Shown: piece after piece, positions 1 through 10,766 of the stretch
Position numbering within the stretch: the first letter of the stretch is position 1
Layout: each line of letters opens with the position of its first letter
Assembly: GCA_946478755.1 (NCBI GenBank)
Contig: CAMLDJ010000111.1
Span: 1-16,152 of the forward strand
DNA from: an uncultured Pedobacter sp.
Lineage (GTDB): Bacteria; Bacteroidota; Bacteroidia; Sphingobacteriales; Sphingobacteriaceae
DNA: 16,152 nucleotides
Reading direction: 5' to 3'
The notes under the pieces: generated by a model
The model's database searches: none
What the model saw: the letters and a program-made list of their open reading frames with translations, nothing else
What the model was told of the DNA's origin: nothing
Position numbers and translations under genes: made by a program

Positions 1-309
1 TTTTTGAAGAAAAGCTATTGCATAAATTGTGAATGGGACATAAACTACCACTTCAACAATCACCAGTATCGGGAACAACCAGACCGCGTGTCTGGGTTTT
101 GCCATGGATGTTGGTAAAATAACATGAGCATGAAAATAAAACAAACAAATGTTAAAAAAATAGAAGATGGCGTAATTTCCTAAGCTTGCAAAATATCCTC
201 TTAGCAATCCTGTAATTACAATTTCATAGAACATAAAGAAGAACCACGCTATGAAATGAATTCGATATTTTTTTATTGACAGATAGTATCCTTTTAAACG
301 TTCCCCCAT
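1..309 (-). CDS. Sensor histidine kinase (LytS/YehU-like), N-terminal membrane part, truncated by window edge
   Basis: Minus-strand reading frame open from the ATG at 309 to the window edge, 103 codons; an in-frame stop lies a short distance upstream, so 309 is the only ATG start. The product begins MGERLKGYYLSIKKYRIHF and shows three hydrophobic segments at about residues 17-37, 41-63 and 73-100. The middle one ends in the FYFHAHVILP pattern typical of the membrane sensor region of Bacteroidota LytS/YehU-type histidine kinases. The catalytic His_kinase and ATPase domains would lie outside the window, so the call rests on the N-terminus and on the LytTR regulator next door. Such kinases phosphorylate a LytTR response regulator. 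The gene order is odd: the regulator lies upstream and is separated from the kinase by a gene on the other strand, so the kinase may have its own promoter within 310-391. Confidence 0.65.
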   Translation of the reverse strand, partial: MGERLKGYYLSIKKYRIHFIAWFFFMFYEIVITGLLRGYFASLGNYAIFYFFNICLFYFHAHVILPTSMAKPRHAVWLFPILVIVEVVVYVPFTIYAIAFLQK

Positions 310-313
310 TTCA

Positions 314-342
314 TGTAATATAGTAGTGCTTTAGTGTAATAT
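314..342. promoter_or_regulatory. Pair of direct repeats TGTAATAT spaced 21 bp, possible LytTR-type operator
   Basis: The octamer TGTAATAT occurs at 314-321 and again at 335-342, giving a 21-bp start-to-start distance with a 13-bp spacer. LytTR-domain regulators typically bind two direct half-sites about two helical turns apart. The pair lies between the kinase start (309, minus) and the 47-residue peptide gene (392, plus), so it could act on either. The repeat is AT-rich, so chance is a real alternative, and the half-site differs from the ACCAC type seen near 1526. Confidence 0.3.
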
Positions 343-391: not shown

Positions 392-535
392 ATGAAAAAG
401 AACCAAGCACGGGTAAATCTACAGAAAACAACATTGTTTGTATTCAAATCAAAAAAAAATGATGGCAGGCCTATTACCGATCCAACAGTTCCACCTACCA
501 CAACCGTAACCTTTTTTGCAGGGGCAAAACATTAA
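392..535 (+). CDS. 47-residue Thr/Pro-rich peptide, possible RiPP (lanthipeptide-like) precursor or signal peptide
   Basis: Open frame ATG 392 to TAA 533-535. The N-terminal half is basic (MKKNQARVNLQKTTLFVFKS, then KKN) and resembles the leader type Lys-x-Leu-x-Lys-Thr-Thr-Leu-x-x-Phe of small Bacteroidota class I lanthipeptide-like precursors. The C-terminal half (from about residue 24) is rich in Thr (6) and Pro (4), with TDPTVPPTTTVTFF, and ends GAKH. It has no Cys, so lanthionine rings could not form within it, and no Gly-Gly leader motif. An intrinsic terminator begins 16 bp after the stop (551-601) on the same strand, which supports real plus-strand transcription. It sits divergently to a membrane histidine kinase and convergently to a LytTR regulator. 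No modification enzyme is in the window. That it is translated is fairly likely; that it is a RiPP or pheromone precursor is inference. Confidence 0.5.
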   Translation: MKKNQARVNLQKTTLFVFKSKKNDGRPITDPTVPPTTTVTFFAGAKH

Positions 536-550
536 TTAATTAATTATCAC

Positions 551-601
551 AACACTAAGATTTAATCTGGTATGCCCCGGTTGGACCTTAGTGTTTTTTT
601 C
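551..601 (+). terminator. Intrinsic terminator of the 47-residue peptide gene
   Basis: AACACTAAG (551-559) pairs perfectly with CTTAGTGTT (587-595), followed by a run of T to 601. The 27-nt loop contains the last codons of the convergent response regulator. The T-run lies on the plus side only, so it terminates plus-strand transcription coming from the peptide gene. Confidence 0.7.
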
Positions 602-1308
602 TCCAAAAAAGTTAAAAATTGCTTTTTATAAGTAGTTCCCAAAGGGACATCAAGTTTATTATTCAGCGTTATTGTGGCCCCCTCGATCTTATTAATATAA
701 TCCATTGACACAATATAAGATCTTTGGACCCTTATAAAAGAACTATTCCCTTCCAGTTTAGCCTCCAGTTCTTTCATGGTCAGATATGCGATGTACATAT
801 TATTTACTGTGTGAATTTTTACGTAGTTATTCAGACCTTCGATCGCTACAAGCTCTTTCAGATTTACCCGAACAAATTTCTGGACCTGATCCGTTTTAAT
901 AAAGAAAAAATCCTCCTTTGGTACTTCTTTTTTAACATTTACATCCGGTTTAAGCAGGCGATTGATCATCAATGCAAATTTGCTCATTGAAATAGGTTTT
1001 AGCAGGTATTCATTAGCCTGTACGCCAAAAGCGTCAATGGCATATTTGGCATGGGCAGTGGTAAAAACCAGGTACCTGGTTTTATGCCTGATGGCATGCG
1101 ACAAGTCCAAGCCAGTCATGCTCGGCATATCAACATCCATAAAAAGGATATCTATATCATCTTCCACGGTAATGTCCATCAAGGCTTTCAGCGGATCAGT
1201 GAAATACTTAAGCAATTGCAGATTAGGCATTGCATCAATATAATCAGCCAATAGATCGACAGCATGTTTTTCATCGTCAATAATAACGCAGTTTAATTTG
1301 GTCTCCAT
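562..1308 (-). CDS. LytTR-family response regulator
   Basis: Two-domain regulator of 248 residues from the ATG at 1308; an upstream in-frame ATG at 1356 would add 16 residues. The 1308 start is preferred because the protein then begins METKLNCVIIDDE, the usual receiver start, and because a TAAGTTTG -7 element lies at 1338-1345, inside the longer version. The receiver has the acidic pair IIDDE, the phosphoacceptor Asp in LFMDVDMPSMTG (about residue 58 of the short form), the conserved Thr in FTTAH and the Lys in LLKP. The C-terminal LytTR DNA-binding domain shows the marks AIEGLNNYVKIH and FIRVQRSYIVSM. It is presumably phosphorylated by the LytS-like kinase at 1-309 and binds direct repeats; matching candidate sites lie at 1523-1564 and perhaps 314-342. 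The gene order regulator then kinase, with an opposite-strand gene between, is unusual. Confidence 0.93.
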   Translation of the reverse strand: METKLNCVIIDDEKHAVDLLADYIDAMPNLQLLKYFTDPLKALMDITVEDDIDILFMDVDMPSMTGLDLSHAIRHKTRYLVFTTAHAKYAIDAFGVQANEYLLKPISMSKFALMINRLLKPDVNVKKEVPKEDFFFIKTDQVQKFVRVNLKELVAIEGLNNYVKIHTVNNMYIAYLTMKELEAKLEGNSSFIRVQRSYIVSMDYINKIEGATITLNNKLDVPLGTTYKKQFLTFLEKKTLRSNRGIPD

Positions 1309-1337
1309 TGAATCGCTTTTAATTGATATAACCTTTA

Positions 1338-1345
1338 CAAACTTA
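1338..1345 (-). promoter_or_regulatory. Candidate -7 element for the response regulator
   Basis: The minus strand reads TAAGTTTG at 1345-1338, an exact match to the Bacteroidota -7 consensus TAnnTTTG. It would give a leader of about 20 nt before the ATG at 1308. No clear TTG lies about 20 bp upstream, so the promoter would be weak or activator-dependent. A copy of the CATTnGCGTAATATA motif (1371-1385) lies just upstream. Confidence 0.4.
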
Positions 1346-1358
1346 TGTTTATTCACCC

Positions 1359-1523
1359 TTAAAAATACGCCATTCGCGTAATATATTTTATTATTCCAAT
1401 AAGTTTACTAAACAAAATTAGATGAAATGTAATTAAAACCATAATTAATAAACCAAAAAATATGAACAGGACAAGATAAGACACTTTTTTAGTTATAAAC
1501 TCAAAGCAGTTATTCATTTTCAT
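1359..1523 (-). CDS. Possible 54-residue membrane peptide (uncertain)
   Basis: Minus-strand frame from ATG 1523 to TAA 1359-1361. The product starts MKMNNCFEFITKKVSY and has one long hydrophobic stretch (about residues 16-38) followed by a short basic tail. It ends 50 bp upstream of the preferred response-regulator start, on the same strand, and so could be the first gene of that operon. Against it: the DNA is AT-rich, where Ile/Leu/Phe/Lys frames arise by chance, no good promoter is seen, and its start codon overlaps a direct repeat that looks like a regulatory site. Not recognised as a known family. Confidence 0.25.
   Translation of the reverse strand: MKMNNCFEFITKKVSYLVLFIFFGLLIMVLITFHLILFSKLIGIIKYITRMAYF
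1371..1385. repeat. CATTnGCGTAATATA motif, copy 1
   Basis: This 15-mer matches positions 1563-1577 at 14 of 15 bases. This copy lies just upstream of the response regulator -7 element, and the other copy just upstream of a plus-strand TTG -33 element. The GTAATAT core also occurs in the 314-342 repeats. A shared operator for this locus is plausible but unproven. Confidence 0.4.
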
Positions 1524-1564
1524 TCACCACAGAAAAAACACTGTTCACCACGTAAAACCACTCA
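1523..1564. promoter_or_regulatory. Triple direct-repeat site with LytTR/BtsR-like geometry
   Basis: TTCACCAC occurs at 1523-1530 and 1544-1551, exactly 21 bp apart. Read as ACCACAGA (1526-1533), a 13-bp spacer, then ACCACGTA (1547-1554), it resembles the ACC(G/A)CT(C/T)A-N13 repeat bound by the LytTR regulator BtsR/YehT. A third half-site, ACCACTCA (1557-1564), fits that consensus exactly and is one helical turn further on. The site ends 14 bp before the TTG of a plus-strand promoter, a usual activator position. The LytTR gene at 562-1308 is the obvious candidate binder. Confidence 0.5.
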
Positions 1565-1577
1565 TTAGCGTAATATA
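1563..1577. repeat. CATTnGCGTAATATA motif, copy 2
   Basis: Second copy of the 15-mer described at 1371-1385, one base different. It overlaps the end of the third ACCAC half-site and abuts the TTG at 1579-1581 of the candidate plus-strand promoter. Confidence 0.4.
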
Positions 1578-1578
1578 A

Positions 1579-1609
1579 TTGGAGGGAGTTTCTTTCTTTT
1601 ATACTTTTA
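1579..1609 (+). promoter_or_regulatory. Candidate plus-strand promoter with no downstream gene
   Basis: TTG at 1579-1581, a 20-bp spacer, then TACTTTTA at 1602-1609, which matches TAnnTTTG at all but the last base. This is the Bacteroidota sigma-factor layout. Transcription would start near 1614 and run into two strong hairpins, with no open frame of note. Confidence 0.4.
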
Positions 1610-1613
1610 GTAA

Positions 1614-1740
1614 ATCTCCTATTAAAAACAGTAGTCCCTGGCACCCCCCCAGTGCCAGGGATTAATAAATTGTCAAAAAAAGTTTGGTACGTTCTCGTAT
1701 ATATTTAGTTCTAAAGGGAGTTAATCCTCCCTTTAGTTAC
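1614..1740 (+). ncRNA. Possible small RNA with two strong hairpins
   Basis: No protein gene is seen between 1524 and 1832, but two perfect 10-bp stems stand out in AT-rich DNA: TCCCTGGCAC (1635-1644) with GTGCCAGGGA (1652-1661), loop 7; and CTAAAGGGAG (1711-1720) with CTCCCTTTAG (1727-1736), loop 6. They follow the candidate promoter at 1579-1609 and the LytTR-like site. Neither is followed by a good T-run on the plus strand. On the minus strand the first is followed by CTACTGTTTTT, so they may instead form the 3' end of the PAP2 transcript. The small-RNA reading is inference. Confidence 0.25.
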
Positions 1741-1832
1741 TAAATAATCTGCCTCAACAAAAAATGCCATTTGAGTTCATGTAATACCAGTATGACCGGA
1801 ATAGGTATTTAATTCTCTTATTTATTGAACGT

Positions 1833-2453
1833 CTAGATTTTAGCCATCGATTTTCCCAGATACCAGCATCCCCAGGTGAAAAACGGTGCGGCCAGAATAT
1901 CAGCCGTATAATGAACATGCTGGATCAGCAGCAATATTGCAAGAAAAACGGAAGCACCAAAAGCCAAGATCTTATCGTTCCTGCGGTCCATACAAAGCGC
2001 ACCCAAAAATACCGTAGCAGTATGTCCGGAAAAAAACAAGTCCTTGGTAATTACATTTGAACGATAAAAGAAAATCGAACATGGATCGGTAAGGTTAATG
2101 ATATCGACAGGAGGATTAAGAGGAACCAACGTTATGGTGATTATCCTGGCTGTACATAGAAATATAAACGCCCACAACGCAGTTAGGCACATCATTGTAT
2201 TTTTAGACATCCGATAAATGAATAAACCTATCATTGTGTATAGTACAATAAATATTCCTCCAGAAACGTCTTTCGCGGGAATAACAGTAAGTAACCAGTC
2301 ATTTAGTACAGTTCCTTCTCTCAGTTCAATATGCGAGAAAAAATGTGGGATGAAAATTAAAATCGCAATAAAAATCAGCATTCCGAGGATAATTTTAATT
2401 CGAAACGCTTGATAATCCCAGGCTATCTGCCAGGTAAATTGGTTAGACTGCAT
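1833..2453 (-). CDS. PAP2-like phosphatase of the sphingomyelin-synthase type (membrane protein)
   Basis: 206-residue integral membrane protein with about six hydrophobic segments. The motif CTARIITITLVPLNPP, then TDPC, the block DLFFSGHTATVFLGAL (about residues 138-153) and QHVHYTADILAAPFFT (about 178-193) match the PAP2_C (sphingomyelin synthase-like) family. The His of SGHT and the His and Asp of HYTAD form the expected catalytic triad. The family acts on lipid phosphates or transfers phospho-head-groups in the membrane; Bacteroidota make sphingolipids, so a sphingolipid or phospholipid role is plausible, but the substrate cannot be read from the sequence. The gene stands alone, divergent from the GMC operon. 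A CAAATAAA at 2487-2494 (minus strand TTTATTTG) may be a weak -7 element. Confidence 0.8.
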   Translation of the reverse strand: MQSNQFTWQIAWDYQAFRIKIILGMLIFIAILIFIPHFFSHIELREGTVLNDWLLTVIPAKDVSGGIFIVLYTMIGLFIYRMSKNTMMCLTALWAFIFLCTARIITITLVPLNPPVDIINLTDPCSIFFYRSNVITKDLFFSGHTATVFLGALCMDRRNDKILAFGASVFLAILLLIQHVHYTADILAAPFFTWGCWYLGKSMAKI

Positions 2454-2591
2454 TAAATCGGTTAGTTATTTGTTTTTAAAATTATACAAATAAAGCGATT
2501 TAATATATAAGTTATAAACACTCATACCCTTATTCCTGACAACCTTTAGTAAAATATTTGATTCGTTATATCATTGAACCTAAACATGACG

Positions 2592-2621
2592 AAATGCGGC
2601 TTGTAAGCCGCATTTTTTTTT
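2592..2621 (+). terminator. Plus-strand terminator hairpin in front of the GMC operon
   Basis: AAATGCGGCT (2592-2601), loop TGTA, AGCCGCATTT (2606-2615), then T to about 2621. The T-run is on the plus strand, yet no plus-strand gene lies upstream: the PAP2 gene is on the other strand. It lies 56 bp before the GMC start, so it may be an attenuator in that operon's leader or the end of a small RNA. Confidence 0.65.
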
Positions 2622-2676
2622 ATTTACAAATTGTTATAAAAAGTATAAATTACATCAACAAATACAGCAAATCAAA

Positions 2677-4413
2677 ATGAATGAATTCCAGATCAAGAAA
2701 TCTCCTGTCAGGTATGATGTAATAATAGTTGGGTCAGGAGCCGGAGGTGGAATGGCAGGATACGTCCTGGCAAATGCGGGGCAAAAAGTACTAATGCTTG
2801 AAGCGGGCGACAATTTTGACCCGCGCACAGACGCGCAACAGCTAAAATGGCCATGGGAATCTCCACGAAGAGGGGCTGGTACTACACGGCCGTTCGGTGA
2901 TTTTGATGCTTCGTATGGTGGCTGGGAACTTGATGGAGAACCTTACACACAGAAAAACAACTCAGAGTTCGCCTGGTTCCGGTCAAGAATGTTGGGTGGA
3001 CGAACCAATCACTGGGGTCGGATTTCTTTGAGAATGGGTCCTGACGATTTTAAATGTAAAGATGGTTTAACGGACGACTGGCCCATAACTTATGAAGAAG
3101 TAAAACCTTTCTATGATAAGGTCGACCGCCTGATTGGAATCTATGGAACCGTGGAGGGTATAGAAAACGAACCAGACGGAATTTTTCTGGCCCCACCAAA
3201 GCCTAGGTTACATGAGTTATTTATAAAAAAAGCCGGACAAAAAGCCGGAGTAAAGGTAATTCCGGGAAGAGGCGCTGTTCTAACTGAGGCGCTTCCGGGC
3301 AATAACGACCGGGCACCTTGTTTTTACTGCGGACAGTGCGGAAGAAGCTGTAAGGTTTACGGAGACTTTTCTGCATCATCCTGCCTGGTCATACCTGCAG
3401 TGAAAACCGGCAATTTGACAGTAATTACCAATGCAATGGTCAGAGAAGTGCTTACAGATCAACATGGCCTTACAACGGGAGTATCCTATGTTGATACTAA
3501 AGACCTTCGCGAACATCAGGTGAATGCAGGGATTGTAATCCTGGGTGCCAGCGCATGCGAATCTGCAAGATTACTTCTAAACTCAAAATCTTCCGCACAT
3601 CCTAACGGCCTGGCTAATAGCAGTGGAGTAATCGGAAAATACCTTCACGATTCAACAGGAGCCAGTCTAAGTGGTTTCTTACCTCAGCTAATGGATCGAA
3701 AGCGTTATAACGAAGATGGGGTTGGGAGCGTACACATTTATTCGCCCTGGTGGCTTGATAATAGAAAACTGGATTTTCCCCGTGGATACCATATTGAGTA
3801 TTGGGGAGGGATGACCATGCCGGCCTATGGCTTTGGCGGAACTGTGCCGAAAATGAATGGTATGGTGCCAGACAGGAACGGGAAGATGAAGGAAGCTGGG
3901 GGATATGGTATTGGACTGAAAGATGATTACAGGCGTTTCTATGGCACAGGGGTTGGAATGGCAGGCAGGGGAACAGCTATAGCGAAAGAAAGTAACTATT
4001 GTGAAATAGATCCTAAGGTAGTTGATAAATATGGAATTCCTGTATTACGTTTCAATTATAAATGGGCACCGGAGGAAATAAAACAAGCTAAACATATGCA
4101 GGAAACATTTCAAGCGATGATGCATGCGATGGGTGCAATCATTACATCCGATATTCATGGCGCCGAAACCAATTACGGATTAGAAGCACCCGGTAAAATT
4201 ATACATGAGGTGGGTACAATACGAATGGGAGATGACCCTAAAAAATCAGCTTTGAATAAGTGGTGTCAGGCACACGAATGTAAAAATCTATTTGTTGTTG
4301 ACGCTGGGCCATTTGTACAACAAGGTGACAAAAATGCAACCTGGACGATCCTTGCGTTATCGATGAGAACAGCTGAATACATCCTGGATCAGAAAAAAAA
4401 GCAAAATATCTAA
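2677..4413 (+). CDS. GMC-family FAD-dependent sugar/polyol dehydrogenase, large subunit, with Fe-S-like Cys cluster
   Basis: 578 residues, GMC oxidoreductase. The N-terminal FAD-binding site is YDVIIVGSGAGGGMAGYVL (about 13-30), with the ribose-binding acid in LEAGD (41-45) and the family block MLGGRTNHWGRISLR (105-119). The C-terminal domain has HEVGTIRMGD (510-519), whose His is the likely catalytic base, and DKNATWTILALSMR (551-564), with Asn553 at the second active-site position. A cluster CxxCxxCxxxC (Cys215, 218, 221, 225) plus Cys236 has ferredoxin spacing, suggesting an Fe-S centre that passes electrons on, as in FAD glucose and fructose dehydrogenase large subunits. There is no signal peptide; it is probably exported by riding on the Tat-signal partner encoded 5 bp downstream. 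The usual cytochrome c subunit is absent from the window. Substrate unknown. Confidence 0.88.
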   Translation: MNEFQIKKSPVRYDVIIVGSGAGGGMAGYVLANAGQKVLMLEAGDNFDPRTDAQQLKWPWESPRRGAGTTRPFGDFDASYGGWELDGEPYTQKNNSEFAWFRSRMLGGRTNHWGRISLRMGPDDFKCKDGLTDDWPITYEEVKPFYDKVDRLIGIYGTVEGIENEPDGIFLAPPKPRLHELFIKKAGQKAGVKVIPGRGAVLTEALPGNNDRAPCFYCGQCGRSCKVYGDFSASSCLVIPAVKTGNLTVITNAMVREVLTDQHGLTTGVSYVDTKDLREHQVNAGIVILGASACESARLLLNSKSSAHPNGLANSSGVIGKYLHDSTGASLSGFLPQLMDRKRYNEDGVGSVHIYSPWWLDNRKLDFPRGYHIEYWGGMTMPAYGFGGTVPKMNGMVPDRNGKMKEAGGYGIGLKDDYRRFYGTGVGMAGRGTAIAKESNYCEIDPKVVDKYGIPVLRFNYKWAPEEIKQAKHMQETFQAMMHAMGAIITSDIHGAETNYGLEAPGKIIHEVGTIRMGDDPKKSALNKWCQAHECKNLFVVDAGPFVQQGDKNATWTILALSMRTAEYILDQKKKQNI

Positions 4414-4418
4414 AAAGC

Positions 4419-5036
4419 ATGAATAGACGTCAATCCTTAAAAATCCTTGGCTTAACTACATTAAGCAGTACCGTGTTATTGGAAGCTTGCAGACCCGGCG
4501 CCGATCAATCGAAACTTACAAAAGCACCTGTTGAGCGGCCGACATCAGGCAGGCAGGAATTTGAAGTTGCTAGGGATAAAAAACTAAACGCTGATCAATT
4601 TTTCAACCAGCACGAAATGGCCACAATTACTGTTCTCGCCAATATCATTATCCCTGAAGATCAAAAATCGGGAAATGCCTCTGATGCAAAAGTGCCCGAC
4701 TTTATTGAATTTATTGTTAAGGACATTCCCGCTCATCAGTTACCTATGCGCGGTGGATTAAAATGGCTGGATCTGCAATGCTTAAACCGCTTTGAGAAGC
4801 CGTTTAAAGATGCCTCGAAAACTCAACAGACCCAAATGCTCGATCTTATTGCTTACCCGGATCGGGTTACAACAGGAATGGAGCAGGGCGTTTCGTTCTT
4901 TAGTCTCATGAGAAATCTCACAGCCTCAGGATTCTTTACCAGCGAAATAGGTATAAAAGATCTGGGCTATAAAGGAAATGTTCCTAACAAATGGGAGGGG
5001 GTTCCTGCGGATGTTTTAAATCAGCACAACCTTTGA
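4419..5036 (+). CDS. Gluconate 2-dehydrogenase subunit 3 family lipoprotein (Tat signal)
   Basis: 205 residues, starting 5 bp after the GMC stop, clearly the same operon. The N-terminus MNRRQSLKILGLTTL carries a twin-arginine motif (Arg3-Arg4), followed by a hydrophobic stretch and a lipobox LLEAC with Cys24, so it is predicted to be a Tat-exported lipoprotein. The body (ADQFFNQHEMATITVLANI, then IIPEDQKSGNASDAKVPDFI) matches the Gluconate_2-dh3 family, the gamma or small subunit that matures and exports GMC dehydrogenase large subunits. It probably anchors the complex at a periplasmic membrane face and carries the GMC subunit through Tat. It is not catalytic itself. Confidence in the family is high; the anchoring role is inference from signal and context. 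Confidence 0.88.
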   Translation: MNRRQSLKILGLTTLSSTVLLEACRPGADQSKLTKAPVERPTSGRQEFEVARDKKLNADQFFNQHEMATITVLANIIIPEDQKSGNASDAKVPDFIEFIVKDIPAHQLPMRGGLKWLDLQCLNRFEKPFKDASKTQQTQMLDLIAYPDRVTTGMEQGVSFFSLMRNLTASGFFTSEIGIKDLGYKGNVPNKWEGVPADVLNQHNL

Positions 5037-6148: not shown

Positions 6149-7183
6149 ATGGAAACATTAAGTGATCGACCTAACTACTTTATAGAAAAGGTTTGGAATA
6201 TGCTTGGAAAAAACAATGTTGAAGAAATTAAGTGGGGCATTATTGGCTGTGGGGATGTTACAGAGCTTAAAAGCGGTCCCGCCTTTAATAAAGTAATGAA
6301 TTCATCCCTGATTGCGGTCATGCGCCGTGATGGCAATAAGGCAAAAGATTATGCCCTGCGACATGGAGTTCTTAAATGGTATGATGATGCAAACCACCTT
6401 ATAGATGACCCAGAAATAAATGCAATTTATATTGCTACTCCTCCCTTACAACATGAAGAATATGCCATTCGCGCTATGGCTGCCGGAAAACCTGTATATG
6501 TCGAAAAGCCTATGACCCTGAACGCAGCCTCTGCTGCGAGAATGAGAGACGCCTCGGAAAAGTACAATGTGAAGCTTACCGTAGCTCATTACAGACGGGC
6601 ACAACCCATGTTTTTAAAAATCAAGTCACTTTTAGAGAGTAATGCAATAGGAGAGGTAAAGGTTGTACAGCTCCAAATGCTGCAGCCACAGAATTCACAG
6701 TTAATTGCAGGGTCTGAGACGAACTGGCGCTTGGATCCAGCCATATCAGGAGGCGGATTATTTCACGATCTCGCTCCTCATCAGCTCGATTTGATGATAC
6801 ATTTTTTTGGGGAGGTAGATAAATCATCGGGTATATCTTTAAATCAAGGAAGCTCCTACGCAGTCGATGATATGGTTACCGGGCATATTTTATTTAAAAA
6901 TGGAGTTGTTTTTAATGGAACATGGTGTTTTTCCGTTGCAGCGCATACTGATCTTTGCGAAATCATCGGAACCGGGGGCAAAATCAGCTTTCCCATGTTT
7001 GGCCATAAGGTGACTTTAGTTAAGGACGGTGAGGAAGAAGATTTTATATTTGATACCTTAACTCATGTGCAGCAACCTATGATAGACGAAGTGGTGAGAT
7101 ACTTTTTGGGTAAAGCAGATAATCCCTGCTCTGCAGAACAAGCGCTGCAATCCATGCAGTTAATGGATATCTTCACAAAATAA
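6149..7183 (+). CDS. Gfo/Idh/MocA-family NAD(P)-dependent oxidoreductase
   Basis: 344 residues from 6149; a second in-frame ATG at 6200 (residue 18, MLGKNNVEEIKWGIIGCG) is a good alternative start, as family members usually begin near the nucleotide fold. The Rossmann motif is GIIGCGDV (30-37), followed by IYIATPP (94-99) and the catalytic-region EKP at 119-121 (VYVEKPMTLN). The second domain has GGGLFHDLAPHQLDLMIHFFG (201-221), where His and Asp residues contribute to the active site. Such enzymes oxidise or reduce sugars, inositols or bile-pigment-like substrates with NAD(P). The substrate cannot be told. It sits alone between a divergent outer-membrane protein and the ABC exporter genes, with 93 bp before the latter. 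Confidence 0.9.
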   Translation: METLSDRPNYFIEKVWNMLGKNNVEEIKWGIIGCGDVTELKSGPAFNKVMNSSLIAVMRRDGNKAKDYALRHGVLKWYDDANHLIDDPEINAIYIATPPLQHEEYAIRAMAAGKPVYVEKPMTLNAASAARMRDASEKYNVKLTVAHYRRAQPMFLKIKSLLESNAIGEVKVVQLQMLQPQNSQLIAGSETNWRLDPAISGGGLFHDLAPHQLDLMIHFFGEVDKSSGISLNQGSSYAVDDMVTGHILFKNGVVFNGTWCFSVAAHTDLCEIIGTGGKISFPMFGHKVTLVKDGEEEDFIFDTLTHVQQPMIDEVVRYFLGKADNPCSAEQALQSMQLMDIFTK

Positions 7184-7276
7184 ACATTGCCTTATCCGCA
7201 ATTATTCAGTCATTCAATTATATATTCCCTTATTCGTATATTGTGCGGCTGAAATCAAACCAGCAGGTACGGATAT

Positions 7277-9022
7277 ATGGATAGCAAAGCAGTAAGCAGC
7301 AAACCGAAAGAACCAGGTATTTTTAGTTTACTAAAGCCCTATAAAGGTTTGATCTTTCTACTACTTTTTTTCGCATTGATAAGTAACGGCGTAAACCTTT
7401 TGTTACCTAAAATAATAGCAAATGGAATTGATGCCTATACCGATGGCACGTTTGATCCCCAAGCTATCCTTATCAAATTCACTGTGGCCATTCTCTTTGT
7501 GTTTCTCTTTACATCTCTGCAAAGCATCATACAAACGTATGCCTCGGAAAAAGTTGCGAGGGACCTTAGAACTCAACTTGCTGATCAAATCTCAAAGCAA
7601 AGCAATAGCTATATAGAAAAGGTCAGTCCAGCCAAGTTACTAACCAACTTAACTGCCGATGTAGATTCTATAAAATCATTTATCTCGCAGGCCATCATTT
7701 CAATTACTTCATCCATATTGATTATTATTGGTGCCACCATTCTCTTGCTTACTATTAACTGGAAACTTGCGTTAGCCATAATAGCGATCATTCCGATTAT
7801 CGGCATTGCCTTTTTTTGGGTGATCAAAAAAGTAAGTGCGCTCTTTAAAGAGAGCAGAGCGGTCATAGACTGGCTTAACAAAGTCATTAATGAAAGTATA
7901 CTTGGTGCTGCCCTGATTCGCGTAGTCAACTCGCAGCAATTAGAATACATTAAATTTTTATCTGCCAATACTAAGGCAAAAGATCTGGGTCTGTCTATTT
8001 TAAGTCTGTTTGCAGGTTTAATCCCCGTAATCATATTTGTAGCCAATCTGGCAGGTCTAACCATATTGCTTCTCGGCGGGCATTACGTAATTAATGATAC
8101 CATGACCCTTGGGGATTTTGCTGCATTTAACAGTTATCTCGCGCTACTCATTTTTCCAATTATCGTGATTGGTTTTATGAGCAACGTTATTGCGCAGGCA
8201 ACAGCATCTTACGGACGTATTGCACAGATATTGAATAAAACAAATGAATCTAATTCGGGTAGCCTTATCGATTCGTTAAAAGGAGAGGTAGAAATGAAGA
8301 AAATCAATGTGATTTATGGACAAAAGCCAGTACTTAAAAATATTTCCTTTCATCTTCAGCCTGGATCGAAAACAGCAATCATCGGCCCGACTGCCGCTGG
8401 TAAAACACAGCTCCTTTATCTGCTTACTGGATTAATCAAACCGGATAGCGGTGACATTATGTTCGATCAACATCACATATCACATTACAATCAGGAAGCT
8501 TTTCATAACCAGGTGGGCTTTGTTTTTCAGGATAGCATTATCTTTAATATGAGTATTCGCGAAAATATTGCCTTCAACGACATGGTTACTGATCAGTCCC
8601 TGGAAAAAGCAATAGAAACAGCTGAACTAAAAGATTTCATCCAGACACTTCCTGAACATTTGAATACGGTTGTCTCTGAAAGAGGATCCAATCTTTCAGG
8701 CGGACAAAAACAAAGGATCATGCTTGCTAGGGCACTGGCATTAAATCCAAAAATTCTTTTGCTTGATGATTTTACCGCAAGGGTTGACAGCCATACCGAG
8801 CAACGGATCCTCGCCAATGTACAGCGAAACTATCCAGGTTTAACCTTACTTTCAGTTACGCAAAAAATTGCCGCTGTTCAAAATTATGATAATGTCATTC
8901 TGATGATGCAGGGTGAAATAATATCACAAGGCACACATCAGCAGCTCATGAAAAGCAGTACTGAGTACGTTCAAATTTACAATTCACAACAGAGCACCAG
9001 TAATTATGAATTACAATCTTAA
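7277..9022 (+). CDS. ABC exporter subunit with degenerate catalytic site (half of heterodimer)
   Basis: 581 residues: a transmembrane domain with six hydrophobic helices (about 20-320) then a nucleotide-binding domain. Walker A is GPTAAGKT (370-377), the Q-loop Gln418, the signature LSGGQ (473-477), and Walker B ILLLDD (493-498). Two catalytic positions are changed: the Glu after Walker B is Asp498 and the switch-loop His is Gln529 (SVTQKIAAV). This is the pattern of the degenerate-site subunit of heterodimeric exporters such as TM287/288. The product would pair with the next gene's protein, whose start overlaps this stop by 17 bp, giving coupled expression. Type IV (ABCB-like) exporters move drugs, lipids or peptides out of the cell; the substrate is unknown. 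Confidence 0.93.
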   Translation: MDSKAVSSKPKEPGIFSLLKPYKGLIFLLLFFALISNGVNLLLPKIIANGIDAYTDGTFDPQAILIKFTVAILFVFLFTSLQSIIQTYASEKVARDLRTQLADQISKQSNSYIEKVSPAKLLTNLTADVDSIKSFISQAIISITSSILIIIGATILLLTINWKLALAIIAIIPIIGIAFFWVIKKVSALFKESRAVIDWLNKVINESILGAALIRVVNSQQLEYIKFLSANTKAKDLGLSILSLFAGLIPVIIFVANLAGLTILLLGGHYVINDTMTLGDFAAFNSYLALLIFPIIVIGFMSNVIAQATASYGRIAQILNKTNESNSGSLIDSLKGEVEMKKINVIYGQKPVLKNISFHLQPGSKTAIIGPTAAGKTQLLYLLTGLIKPDSGDIMFDQHHISHYNQEAFHNQVGFVFQDSIIFNMSIRENIAFNDMVTDQSLEKAIETAELKDFIQTLPEHLNTVVSERGSNLSGGQKQRIMLARALALNPKILLLDDFTARVDSHTEQRILANVQRNYPGLTLLSVTQKIAAVQNYDNVILMMQGEIISQGTHQQLMKSSTEYVQIYNSQQSTSNYELQS

Positions 9023-10766
9023 CCAGATCAGCGGTAAGGAAGAAAAGAAATCTACATTTGCAGTACTAAAAAAGCTATTGCAGCTCATCGCTCATGAACG
9101 CAAAAATCTTTTACTTGCCTTCATTGCAATAGTAATTAACTCCTCCTTGCTGTTGCTTTCACCATTAATTATAGGCTATACTATAGATACCTATGTAACT
9201 ACCAAGCAATTTAGCGGGGTCTTGTTATATTCAGGCATCCTTTTCACCATGTATCTGGTTACCTTATTTACAGGATACACACAGACCAAGCTGATGGGTG
9301 GAGTAGGACAAAGAACATTGTTCACTCTTCGCAATGTGATATTTCAGAAATTGCAGGAACTGCCGGTTTCTTTTTTCAGTCAGAATAAAGCTGGCGATCT
9401 TATTTCAAGGGTTAACAATGATACTGATAAATTGAACCAGTTCTTCTCACAATCTTTAATGCAGTTTTTAAGCAGCATATTTACCATGCTGGGAGCAGGT
9501 ATTTTTCTTCTCGTGATTAACATCAAACTTGGCGCTGCGACACTCGTCCCAGGATTATTAATATTGATATTTACAGCCCTTGTGTCGAGATGGGTAAAAA
9601 AGAAAAATACAGCAAATCTAAAAAGTGTAGGAAGCCTGAGTGGCGGAATACAGGAAAGTCTGAACAATTTCAAAGTCATCATTGCTTTTAACCGGCGTGA
9701 CTATTTCAGAAAGAAATTTGACGAAACCAATAGCCAGAACTATAAAACCGCAATTGGCGCTGGTATCGCCAACACTATTTTTGTTCCCATATTTGGGTTC
9801 TTCTCCAGTGCAGCGCAGCTGATTGTACTGTTATACGGCATACATCTTATTTTAATTGGTGAATTTTCCATAGGCTTACTGATCAGTTACCTCTCTTATG
9901 CAGTAAACTTTTACAACCCGTTACGTCAGCTCGCTGCCTTGTGGAGCAGCTTCCAGGTAGCCATGGCAGGCTGGGACAGAATCTCCCAAATTCTATCATT
10001 GGAAAACAACCTTCGTGTAATACAAGACGCCAATTCGTCTAATTCCAATGCCTTGCTATCTTTTAAAAATGTTCATTTTTCCTATTCAGGTGGAGAAGAA
10101 ATATTGCATAATATCAGTTTCGATCTTCTAAAAGGCAAAACCTATGCTTTAATTGGCCCCACTGGTGGTGGCAAAACTACTACCGCATCTCTGATGGCTC
10201 GTTTATACGATGCTACCGATGGTAAAATATTGTTGCAAGGAAAGGATATTCGTTCTTATACTGCAGAAGAACGGGGAAAAAAAATAGGATTCATTTTACA
10301 GGAACCATTTTTATTTACGGGCACAGTAAGAGACAATATTTTGTACAGCAACAATGCTTATAAGGACTATACAAATGAACAGCTGGAAGAGGTCATTAAA
10401 ACAGCACATCTAGAGGACTTGCTGACCTTGTTTGATAGAGGATTGGAAACAGAGGTGACATCAAACTCAGACAATATAAGCCTGGGGCAAAAGCAGCTGA
10501 TTGCATTCATGAGAGCTGTGCTGCGCAATCCCGAATTACTTATTCTCGACGAAGCTACCGCCAACATAGATACCATTACAGAAAAACTGCTCAGTGATAT
10601 CTTAAAAAAACTACCAAGTGAAACTACACTGGTAATCATTGCTCACCGGTTGAATACCATCGAGAACGCGGATGAGATATATTTTATAAACTCTGGTGAG
10701 GTGATTAAAGCTGGCACACTCAATCATGCGATGAATATGCTGCTAAAAGGAAAAAGAAACAGTTAA
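9006..10766 (+). CDS. ABC exporter subunit with consensus catalytic residues (partner of 7277-9022)
   Basis: 586 residues: six hydrophobic helices (about 35-330) and a nucleotide-binding domain. Walker A is GPTGGGKT (384-391), Q-loop Gln432, Walker B LLILDE (511-516) with catalytic Glu516, and the switch His547 (IIAHRLNTI). The signature is ISLGQ (491-495) instead of LSGGQ: Leu493 replaces the first Gly. Since the signature of one subunit faces the Walker motifs of the other, this altered motif falls in the same composite site as Asp498/Gln529 of the first subunit, giving one degenerate and one active ATP site. The start codon lies inside the upstream gene (17-bp overlap), so the two are translated together. 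Confidence 0.93.
   Translation: MNYNLNQISGKEEKKSTFAVLKKLLQLIAHERKNLLLAFIAIVINSSLLLLSPLIIGYTIDTYVTTKQFSGVLLYSGILFTMYLVTLFTGYTQTKLMGGVGQRTLFTLRNVIFQKLQELPVSFFSQNKAGDLISRVNNDTDKLNQFFSQSLMQFLSSIFTMLGAGIFLLVINIKLGAATLVPGLLILIFTALVSRWVKKKNTANLKSVGSLSGGIQESLNNFKVIIAFNRRDYFRKKFDETNSQNYKTAIGAGIANTIFVPIFGFFSSAAQLIVLLYGIHLILIGEFSIGLLISYLSYAVNFYNPLRQLAALWSSFQVAMAGWDRISQILSLENNLRVIQDANSSNSNALLSFKNVHFSYSGGEEILHNISFDLLKGKTYALIGPTGGGKTTTASLMARLYDATDGKILLQGKDIRSYTAEERGKKIGFILQEPFLFTGTVRDNILYSNNAYKDYTNEQLEEVIKTAHLEDLLTLFDRGLETEVTSNSDNISLGQKQLIAFMRAVLRNPELLILDEATANIDTITEKLLSDILKKLPSETTLVIIAHRLNTIENADEIYFINSGEVIKAGTLNHAMNMLLKGKRNS

Follow-up and report, generated by a model that had tools for sequence, protein, structure and literature searches.

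Threonine-rich peptides of Pedobacter and related bacteria are probably chemically modified, private signals, each read by a neighbouring sensor kinase

The window analysed in this work is a 16,152-nucleotide stretch of DNA from an uncultured Pedobacter sp., a soil bacterium, and a small peptide gene near its left end had previously been overlooked. The gene lies between those of a membrane histidine kinase and a LytTR response regulator, and the following features were located around it:

1..309, minus strand: N-terminal part (103 aa) of the membrane histidine kinase, whose gene is divergent from that of the peptide and is cut by the window edge.
314..339, plus strand: direct repeat TGTAA-N16-TGTAA with 21-bp spacing, LytTR-box-like, between the kinase start and the peptide start.
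392..535, plus strand: predicted precursor peptide gene, 47 aa, with a basic first half and a Thr/Pro-rich second half, no Cys.
413..445, plus strand: leader motif VNLQKTTLFVF, which fits [LIV]xLxKx5[LFY], from motif statistics over 148 leaders.
476..532, plus strand: operational core TDPTVPPTTTVTFFAGAKH with a putative cleavage site, from variability between loci, near-invariance within arrays and a family Thr+Ser content of 38%.
551..601, plus strand: predicted terminator (hairpin plus T-run) for the transcript of the peptide gene; it overlaps the regulator gene at its 3′ end.
562..1308, minus strand: LytTR response regulator (PF00072 and PF04397), convergent with the peptide gene.

The description given in the earlier note, of a Cys-free frame of 47 residues with its own terminator between the two genes of a LytTR system, was borne out in all its parts. 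The hairpin at 551-595 (+) has a dG of −17.4 kcal/mol (z −3.77), none of 200 shuffled sequences was equally stable, and T594-600 follows it; the stop of the regulator gene, at 562, falls inside this plus-strand hairpin. A comparable terminator hairpin is present at locus L004, which belongs to a Pedobacter genome (G004), and under an overly strict filter the terminator was recovered at 16 of 117 loci, against 1.8 in shuffled sequences and 3 on the opposite strand. The regulator was recognised by its Pfam domains, and its close relatives are 65-97% identical, the named ones being from Pedobacter. The kinase fragment had no Pfam match of its own; it was 50% identical over 90 aa (E 1e-33) to the kinase of L004, which carries PF06580 (His_kinase). 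In the AlphaFold model of the L004 kinase, helices at 16-37, 43-68, 73-103 and from 117 onward precede the kinase part. When this model was used in Foldseek, the matches listed were kinases or kinase domains, none of which was specific to the membrane part. Elsewhere in the window there is a strong terminator-like hairpin of 11 pairs at 1635-1661 (−), between the regulator gene and a PAP2-like gene (1833-2453), and two adjoining genes at 7277-10766, ABC-exporter-like by translation only, lie about 7 kb from the peptide gene.

A protein search with the peptide gave six relatives of 44-50 aa (E 5.7e-19 to 1.1e-5) and a profile search a seventh (E 2.9e-16). All seven share the invariant block K-T-T-L-F-V-F-K-S-K-K-N, and the second half is variable. 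The Pfam and NCBIfam searches returned chance-level matches only, and the phage collection searched gave none; among the genome and viral contigs, an 8-member alignment produced 82 and 328 pattern matches, none of them confirmed, the peptide being perhaps too short for tblastn. Family alignments of 33 (A4) and 62 (A6) members were then available. With the 33-member alignment, 38 of the 201 genomes of the family of G004 matched at E<=0.001. A limit of E<=0.1 raised this to 69, the matches weaker than 0.001 being partly due to chance; several of these genomes hold many peptide copies and tandem arrays. In wider samples, 3 of 395 genomes of a phylum-wide sample matched at E<=0.001, all three also being in the family sample; in the order of Pontibacter only the centre genome itself did (1 of 194), and a candidate peptide of Chitinophaga found, in 195 genomes, itself and two matches at E 0.04-0.08. 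Taking into account that these three samples are nearly empty, the profile reaches little outside the family. The candidate frames of Chitinophaga and Niastella (L061, L066) were assigned by their position and their LanB only, in regions that hold other small frames.

Two contigs, paired by their lengths of 5,956 and 89,277 bases, appear to carry a relative of the peptide together with one of the regulator. When genome contigs were scanned with the regulator alignment, 76 loci were obtained, of which 36 carry a family peptide at E<0.001, a count that leaves out L077-L136 (short copies of sites); here peptide and regulator are encoded on opposite strands or, at some loci, the peptide gene lies upstream of the kinase gene. 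By the converse route, 91 peptide-site regions were picked by hand from the family-search matches listed (E<0.001, some weaker), those of G004 and G008 having been included already. Among the 82 distinct loci found by peptide search only, the arrangement of the window, with a convergent regulator and a divergent kinase, occurs in 73, and in 5 the peptide gene is divergent from a kinase gene that the regulator gene follows; the others have a regulator only (2), a kinase only (1) or neither (1). Thus, a divergent membrane kinase and a LytTR regulator are both present in 78 of the 82. The polytopic membrane kinase and LytTR regulator expected of an agr-type system were found as well. One peptide is encoded in 64 of these loci and 2-7 tandem copies in 18. 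Over all 116 distinct loci (125 minus duplicates, peptide matches at E>0.001 having been removed beforehand) the first arrangement occurs 101 times and the second 10 times. In three Pedobacter loci (L021, L023, L032) a second LytTR regulator stands behind the kinase, in the order regulator, peptide, kinase, regulator. At L172 and L193 the regulator, peptide and LanB are present and no kinase frame was recognised in the gap of about 1.1 kb between peptide and LanB; this kinase has possibly diverged or been broken.

LytTR regulators bind direct repeats whose halves are separated by about two helical turns; promoters of Bacteroidetes carry a −7 box. Pairs of TGTAA at 21 bp occur in 10 of 113 regions upstream of the peptides, against 0.1 in shuffled sequences, and looser repeat halves at the same distance in 27 of 113 against 1.0, with a 23-bp spacing also enriched (9 against 1.2); the 21-bp spacing was first seen in these same, often related sequences, so these counts should not be read as independent tests. 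Of the 113 regions, 43 have a TAnnTTT[CG] box no more than 45 bases from the start (8.2 in shuffles). When eight peptide-bearing genomes were scanned with a pattern read off these same peptide promoters, the peptide promoter was the only perfect match in six and the best match in G009 (one mismatch); in G008 a second site equalled it, each with one mismatch. Other matches in the genomes were not above the reversed-pattern control; considering also that three of the seven other sites inspected lie inside one conserved coding frame, no second target of the regulator is claimed.

The earlier note had stated that no modification enzyme is nearby, which is due to the window ending inside the kinase gene: in many peptide-bearing relatives a gene for a full-length LanB dehydratase stands directly behind the kinase. 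In a search with PF04738, all 44 module-bearing family genomes tested had a LanB adjoining a peptide module (22/22 and 22/22 in two batches, read by eye from the coordinates). These genomes include all 38 with a peptide at E<=0.001, and the adjoining peptide of G193 is weak (E 0.006). Two other weak matches (G133, G027; E 0.003) have an adjoining LanB, and a third (G067) is without one. Any LanB was found in 5 of the 20 genomes listed of the 132 without a peptide match (5/12 and 0/8), several of which are small, so this contrast is not fully controlled. In Pontibacter, the LanB of G599 adjoins the module and the nearest one in G597 is about 8 kb away. The LanB gene is convergent with the kinase or, where the regulator follows the kinase, with the regulator, and this includes the Chitinophaga and Niastella loci. 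The frames mostly have 917-984 aa, with 1049 in G088 and two frames (714 and 240) in G103. Lant_dehydr_N and Lant_dehydr_C (PF04738 and PF14028) were present in the three proteins tested, and the comparison with NisB gave E 3.3e-20. The motifs H.R.R, RYG and HM.VNR, elimination-site residues of NisB, are common to NisB and invariant in 18 LanBs of array loci.

From this linkage we infer that the LanB acts on the peptide precursor, which does not favour the unmodified signal put forward as one option earlier. The other option, a precursor modified elsewhere, may hold for modules without an adjoining LanB. More peptide sites than LanB genes were counted in five genomes, with four sites (E<0.001) and a single LanB in G047, G176 and G188 and three sites (E<0.001) and a single LanB in G199 and G208, so the LanB would have to be shared if it modifies all the precursors. 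G157 has seven sites, together with LanBs of other types, and further LanBs of other types occur in many genomes. No peptide was detected at 40 of the regulator-search loci, two duplicates that do have one being set aside. A LanB is present at seven of the 40; at six of the seven a small divergent frame was judged family-like by eye, and the seventh, L064, is cut at the contig end. At L001, L002, L003 and L006 the kinase lies 16-77 bases behind the regulator, and neither peptide nor LanB lies behind it; G001-G003 have no LanB at all and G006 has one of 1048 aa elsewhere. L001 and L002, both without peptide and LanB, are the closest relatives of the window regulator for which there is a genome. 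These four loci keep kinase and regulator despite the loss of peptide and LanB, and it is possible that their kinases are receivers of the signals of other cells.

Leader and core were counted over 148 distinct peptides, which omits 11 of 159 without a boundary motif, four of them containing Cys. The pattern L.K.{5}[LFY] is present in 97 of 148 leaders, where shuffles give 5.6; its extended form [LIV].[LIVKT].K.{5}[LFYI] is present in 37, where shuffles give 10.0. An LxLxKx5L motif was reported for class I LanAs of Bacteroidetes in the portion of PMC7268733 consulted, and the leader motif of the family is related to it. The window peptide has no GG motif, and for 33 family members neither the class I lanthipeptide leader model of NCBIfam nor the ComC family gave a match at E<=1. 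The cores have 27% Thr and 11% Ser, with a median of 7 hydroxy residues. Cys, which a class I lanthipeptide has in its core for (methyl)lanthionine rings, is absent from 143 of the 148 distinct cores and from that of the window, and is present in 5.

The genes that flank the LanB modules vary by locus and include OmpA, PorP/SprF, HSP90, a methyltransferase, transcription regulators, NusG, a condensation domain, a glycosyltransferase, an MFS transporter (L007) and a subtilase (L012). No exporter or leader protease was found within the module, no LanC in a set of 14 proteins from the flanks of nine loci, and no AgrB (PF04647) above the cut-off in 22 module-bearing genomes, with one sub-threshold match in G004. 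C39 peptidases matched in 21 of 22 genomes that have a module and in 5 of 12 that have none, which makes them a candidate exporter or protease for the peptide; they lie 2-7 kb from a peptide site in G047:C8, G157:C17, G170:C36 and the weak site of G199:C17, and mostly farther away. In the genomes where both families were searched, 3 of 31 LanB-less sites with E<0.001 were seen by eye from the coordinates to have a C39 peptidase or a different LanB within 10 kb (G047:C8:175763, G157:C17 and G170:C36). At L198 (G157:C17) a grasp-with-spasm ATP-grasp maturase, above the cut-off, is encoded at 6273-7199 (+), about 2 kb from the regulator of a LanB-less module, with the C39 peptidase beyond it. At L063, also LanB-less, two Cys-rich GG-leader precursors lie about 0.5 kb from the regulator, together with two LanC-like genes (3976-4458 (−) and 1268-3695 (−)); of the two precursors one was scanned, and it fits the class I lanthipeptide leader model of NCBIfam. 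This suggests that some modules control neighbouring RiPP clusters as outputs, which the two loci do not establish, since they were chosen for their nearby RiPP genes.

An adjoining, NisB-like LanB would also be expected if the product were a dehydrated antimicrobial RiPP induced by its own two-component system, signalling being then the autoregulation of a weapon. Loci of nisin also carry a two-component system, and the MFS transporter and the subtilase in the flanks agree with this explanation. Against it, the flanking genes differ from locus to locus with no immunity gene recognised among them, and a LanB lies within the fetched flank in 36 of the 82 peptide-search loci and in none of the other 46. 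Taking into account as well that the cores of an array are kept identical, and that changes of the core go with changes of the kinase membrane domain, as described below, we consider a weapon an unlikely explanation.

Within 17 arrays the core is more conserved (identity 0.95) than the leader (0.78), and between 18 array loci, which share flanking gene sizes, the order is reversed (core 0.47, leader 0.65). The pN/pS of the leader within arrays was 0.24 and that of the core 0.07; with a core pS of 0.43 against a pN of 0.03, selection, and not recent copying, appears to have kept the cores identical. The co-variation of core and kinase was calculated for 100 modules (4950 pairs; 8 of 108 modules had no recognisable boundary and were skipped), corrected for the identities of kinase domain, regulator protein and regulator DNA, with 199 permutations, for which 0.005 is the minimum p. 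Over all pairs, core identity was related to that of the kinase membrane part (0.191, p 0.005) and not to that of the kinase domain (0.025, p 0.30), and the leader was not related to the membrane part (−0.045, p 0.87). In 333 close pairs the values for the core were 0.627 (p 0.005) with the membrane part and 0.055 (p 0.28) with the kinase domain, and for the leader with the membrane part 0.163 (p 0.07). Array modules alone gave 0.609; when they were excluded, the full set of pairs no longer showed co-variation (0.009, p 0.36), and the 123 close pairs gave about equal values for the core (0.366) and the leader (0.352). Some pairs with regulators 0.91-0.94 and kinase domains 0.74-0.79 identical have membrane parts with an identity of only 0.22-0.35 and cores with one of 0.14-0.19; L137 and L138 are a counterexample, with cores 0.95 identical and membrane parts only 0.58. 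The core thus tracks the membrane domain of the kinase, not the catalytic domain or the regulator, mainly in array modules, and it is mainly through these that the co-variation of core and receptor sensor domain expected of a peptide pheromone is found.

Such co-variation could also arise if the peptide were a non-secreted small-protein partner that binds the kinase and tunes it from inside the cell, with which the lack of a detected exporter or protease in the module agrees. The association with LanB speaks against this, and tandem arrays of near-identical cores would fit a released product better; we hold an intracellular partner to be improbable.

Between loci, pN/pS was 0.24-0.33 in leader and core alike, well below 1, and the frame at 392-535 is a real gene under purifying selection. 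In the test that the earlier note had proposed, relatives that keep the kinase and regulator genes also keep the leader motif, and their cores vary; the likeness to peptide-pheromone or RiPP loci that it pointed out gains support from the adjoining LanB and from the co-variation of core and receptor. The opposite strand and the terminator over the 3′ end of the regulator gene would suit a transcript that acts as antisense or attenuating RNA on the regulator or kinase genes, the peptide being incidental, but selection on the protein (as low as 0.07 in array cores) and the placement of the regulator elsewhere, behind the kinase, in 10 of 116 loci make this very improbable. A chance open frame, in whose favour there is nothing, is refuted by conservation, relatives, constancy of position and pN/pS.

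The explanation that we prefer, and regard as likely, is that the gene encodes a RiPP precursor, dehydrated by LanB and Cys-free, that serves as a self-induced peptide signal. Points that speak against it are the 46 peptide-search loci whose fetched flank has no LanB, the exporter and protease not found in the module, the co-variation confined mainly to array modules, and the upstream repeat, present in 27 of 113 regions even by the looser count. LanB would recognise the LxKx5[LFY] leader and dehydrate Thr and Ser of the core to Dhb and Dha; as the core has no Cys, the predicted product is a dehydropeptide and not a lanthionine. The leader would be removed and the core exported by machinery that was not found in the module, and the core would then act on the membrane domain of its own kinase. 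The kinase would phosphorylate the LytTR regulator, which would bind the direct repeat and activate the peptide gene; in some modules it would also activate RiPP genes nearby. In genomes with several modules, one LanB might be shared among the precursors, each core being read by its own kinase. Extended to the Sphingobacteriaceae and related Bacteroidota, this would amount to a multi-channel dehydropeptide language in which one LanB serves several Thr-rich, Cys-free precursors (up to about seven per genome) with private kinase/LytTR pairs, arrays set the dose and some channels switch RiPP clusters; for this wider proposal we see even chances.

Peptide autoinducers have been described for Gram-positives, and for Bacteroidetes, in the sections of PMC8895600 consulted, only homologues of known kinase/regulator pairs; the extract of PMC10352776 describes a ComX-like gene of B. 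fragilis without the key tryptophan. In the open-licence literature searched, which included parts of PMC8895600, PMC12181424, PMC12328550, PMC10352776 and PMC7268733, there was no description of the module or of a peptide-pheromone system of Bacteroidota. The module is conserved and easily recognised by its own LanB, co-varying receptor and candidate promoter site, and can be tested in culturable Pedobacter. If the proposal is true, LanB would have a role without Cys, with dehydroamino acids within a signal, and one RiPP enzyme would be common to several receptor-matched precursors.

Nisin-type class I lanthipeptide loci comprise NisA, NisB, NisC, NisT, NisP and NisK/NisR. The module resembles them in having precursor, LanB, membrane kinase and regulator in one locus, with a product that may induce itself. 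It differs in the LytTR regulator and PF06580 kinase, in its mostly Cys-free cores (143 of 148), in a leader of the LxKx5[LFY] type where nisin has FxLD, in the lack of LanC among the flanking proteins scanned (the LanC-like pair of L063 excepted) and in the five genomes that hold more sets of peptide, kinase and regulator than LanBs. The class I lanthipeptides of Bacteroidetes, such as pinensin and the PedA15 type of Pedobacter lusitanus, have Cys-containing cores, often GG leaders, and clusters with LanB and LanC. With these the module shares LanB, phylum, genus and, according to the portion of PMC7268733 consulted, an LxLxKx5L-like leader; the differences are the mostly Cys-free cores and the family members without a match to the NCBIfam class I leader model (0/33).

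By comparison with the agr, ComCDE and Blp systems of Gram-positives, the module has no AgrB above the cut-off in 22 genomes and no GG leader in the window peptide; it belongs to Bacteroidota and includes a LanB, and its kinase and regulator are encoded on one strand, its peptide on the other. It shares with them the short precursor, the polytopic kinase with a divergent membrane sensor and the LytTR regulator, as well as a core and a receptor that vary together. Blp controls bacteriocins, and the few modules that adjoin RiPP genes recall this control.
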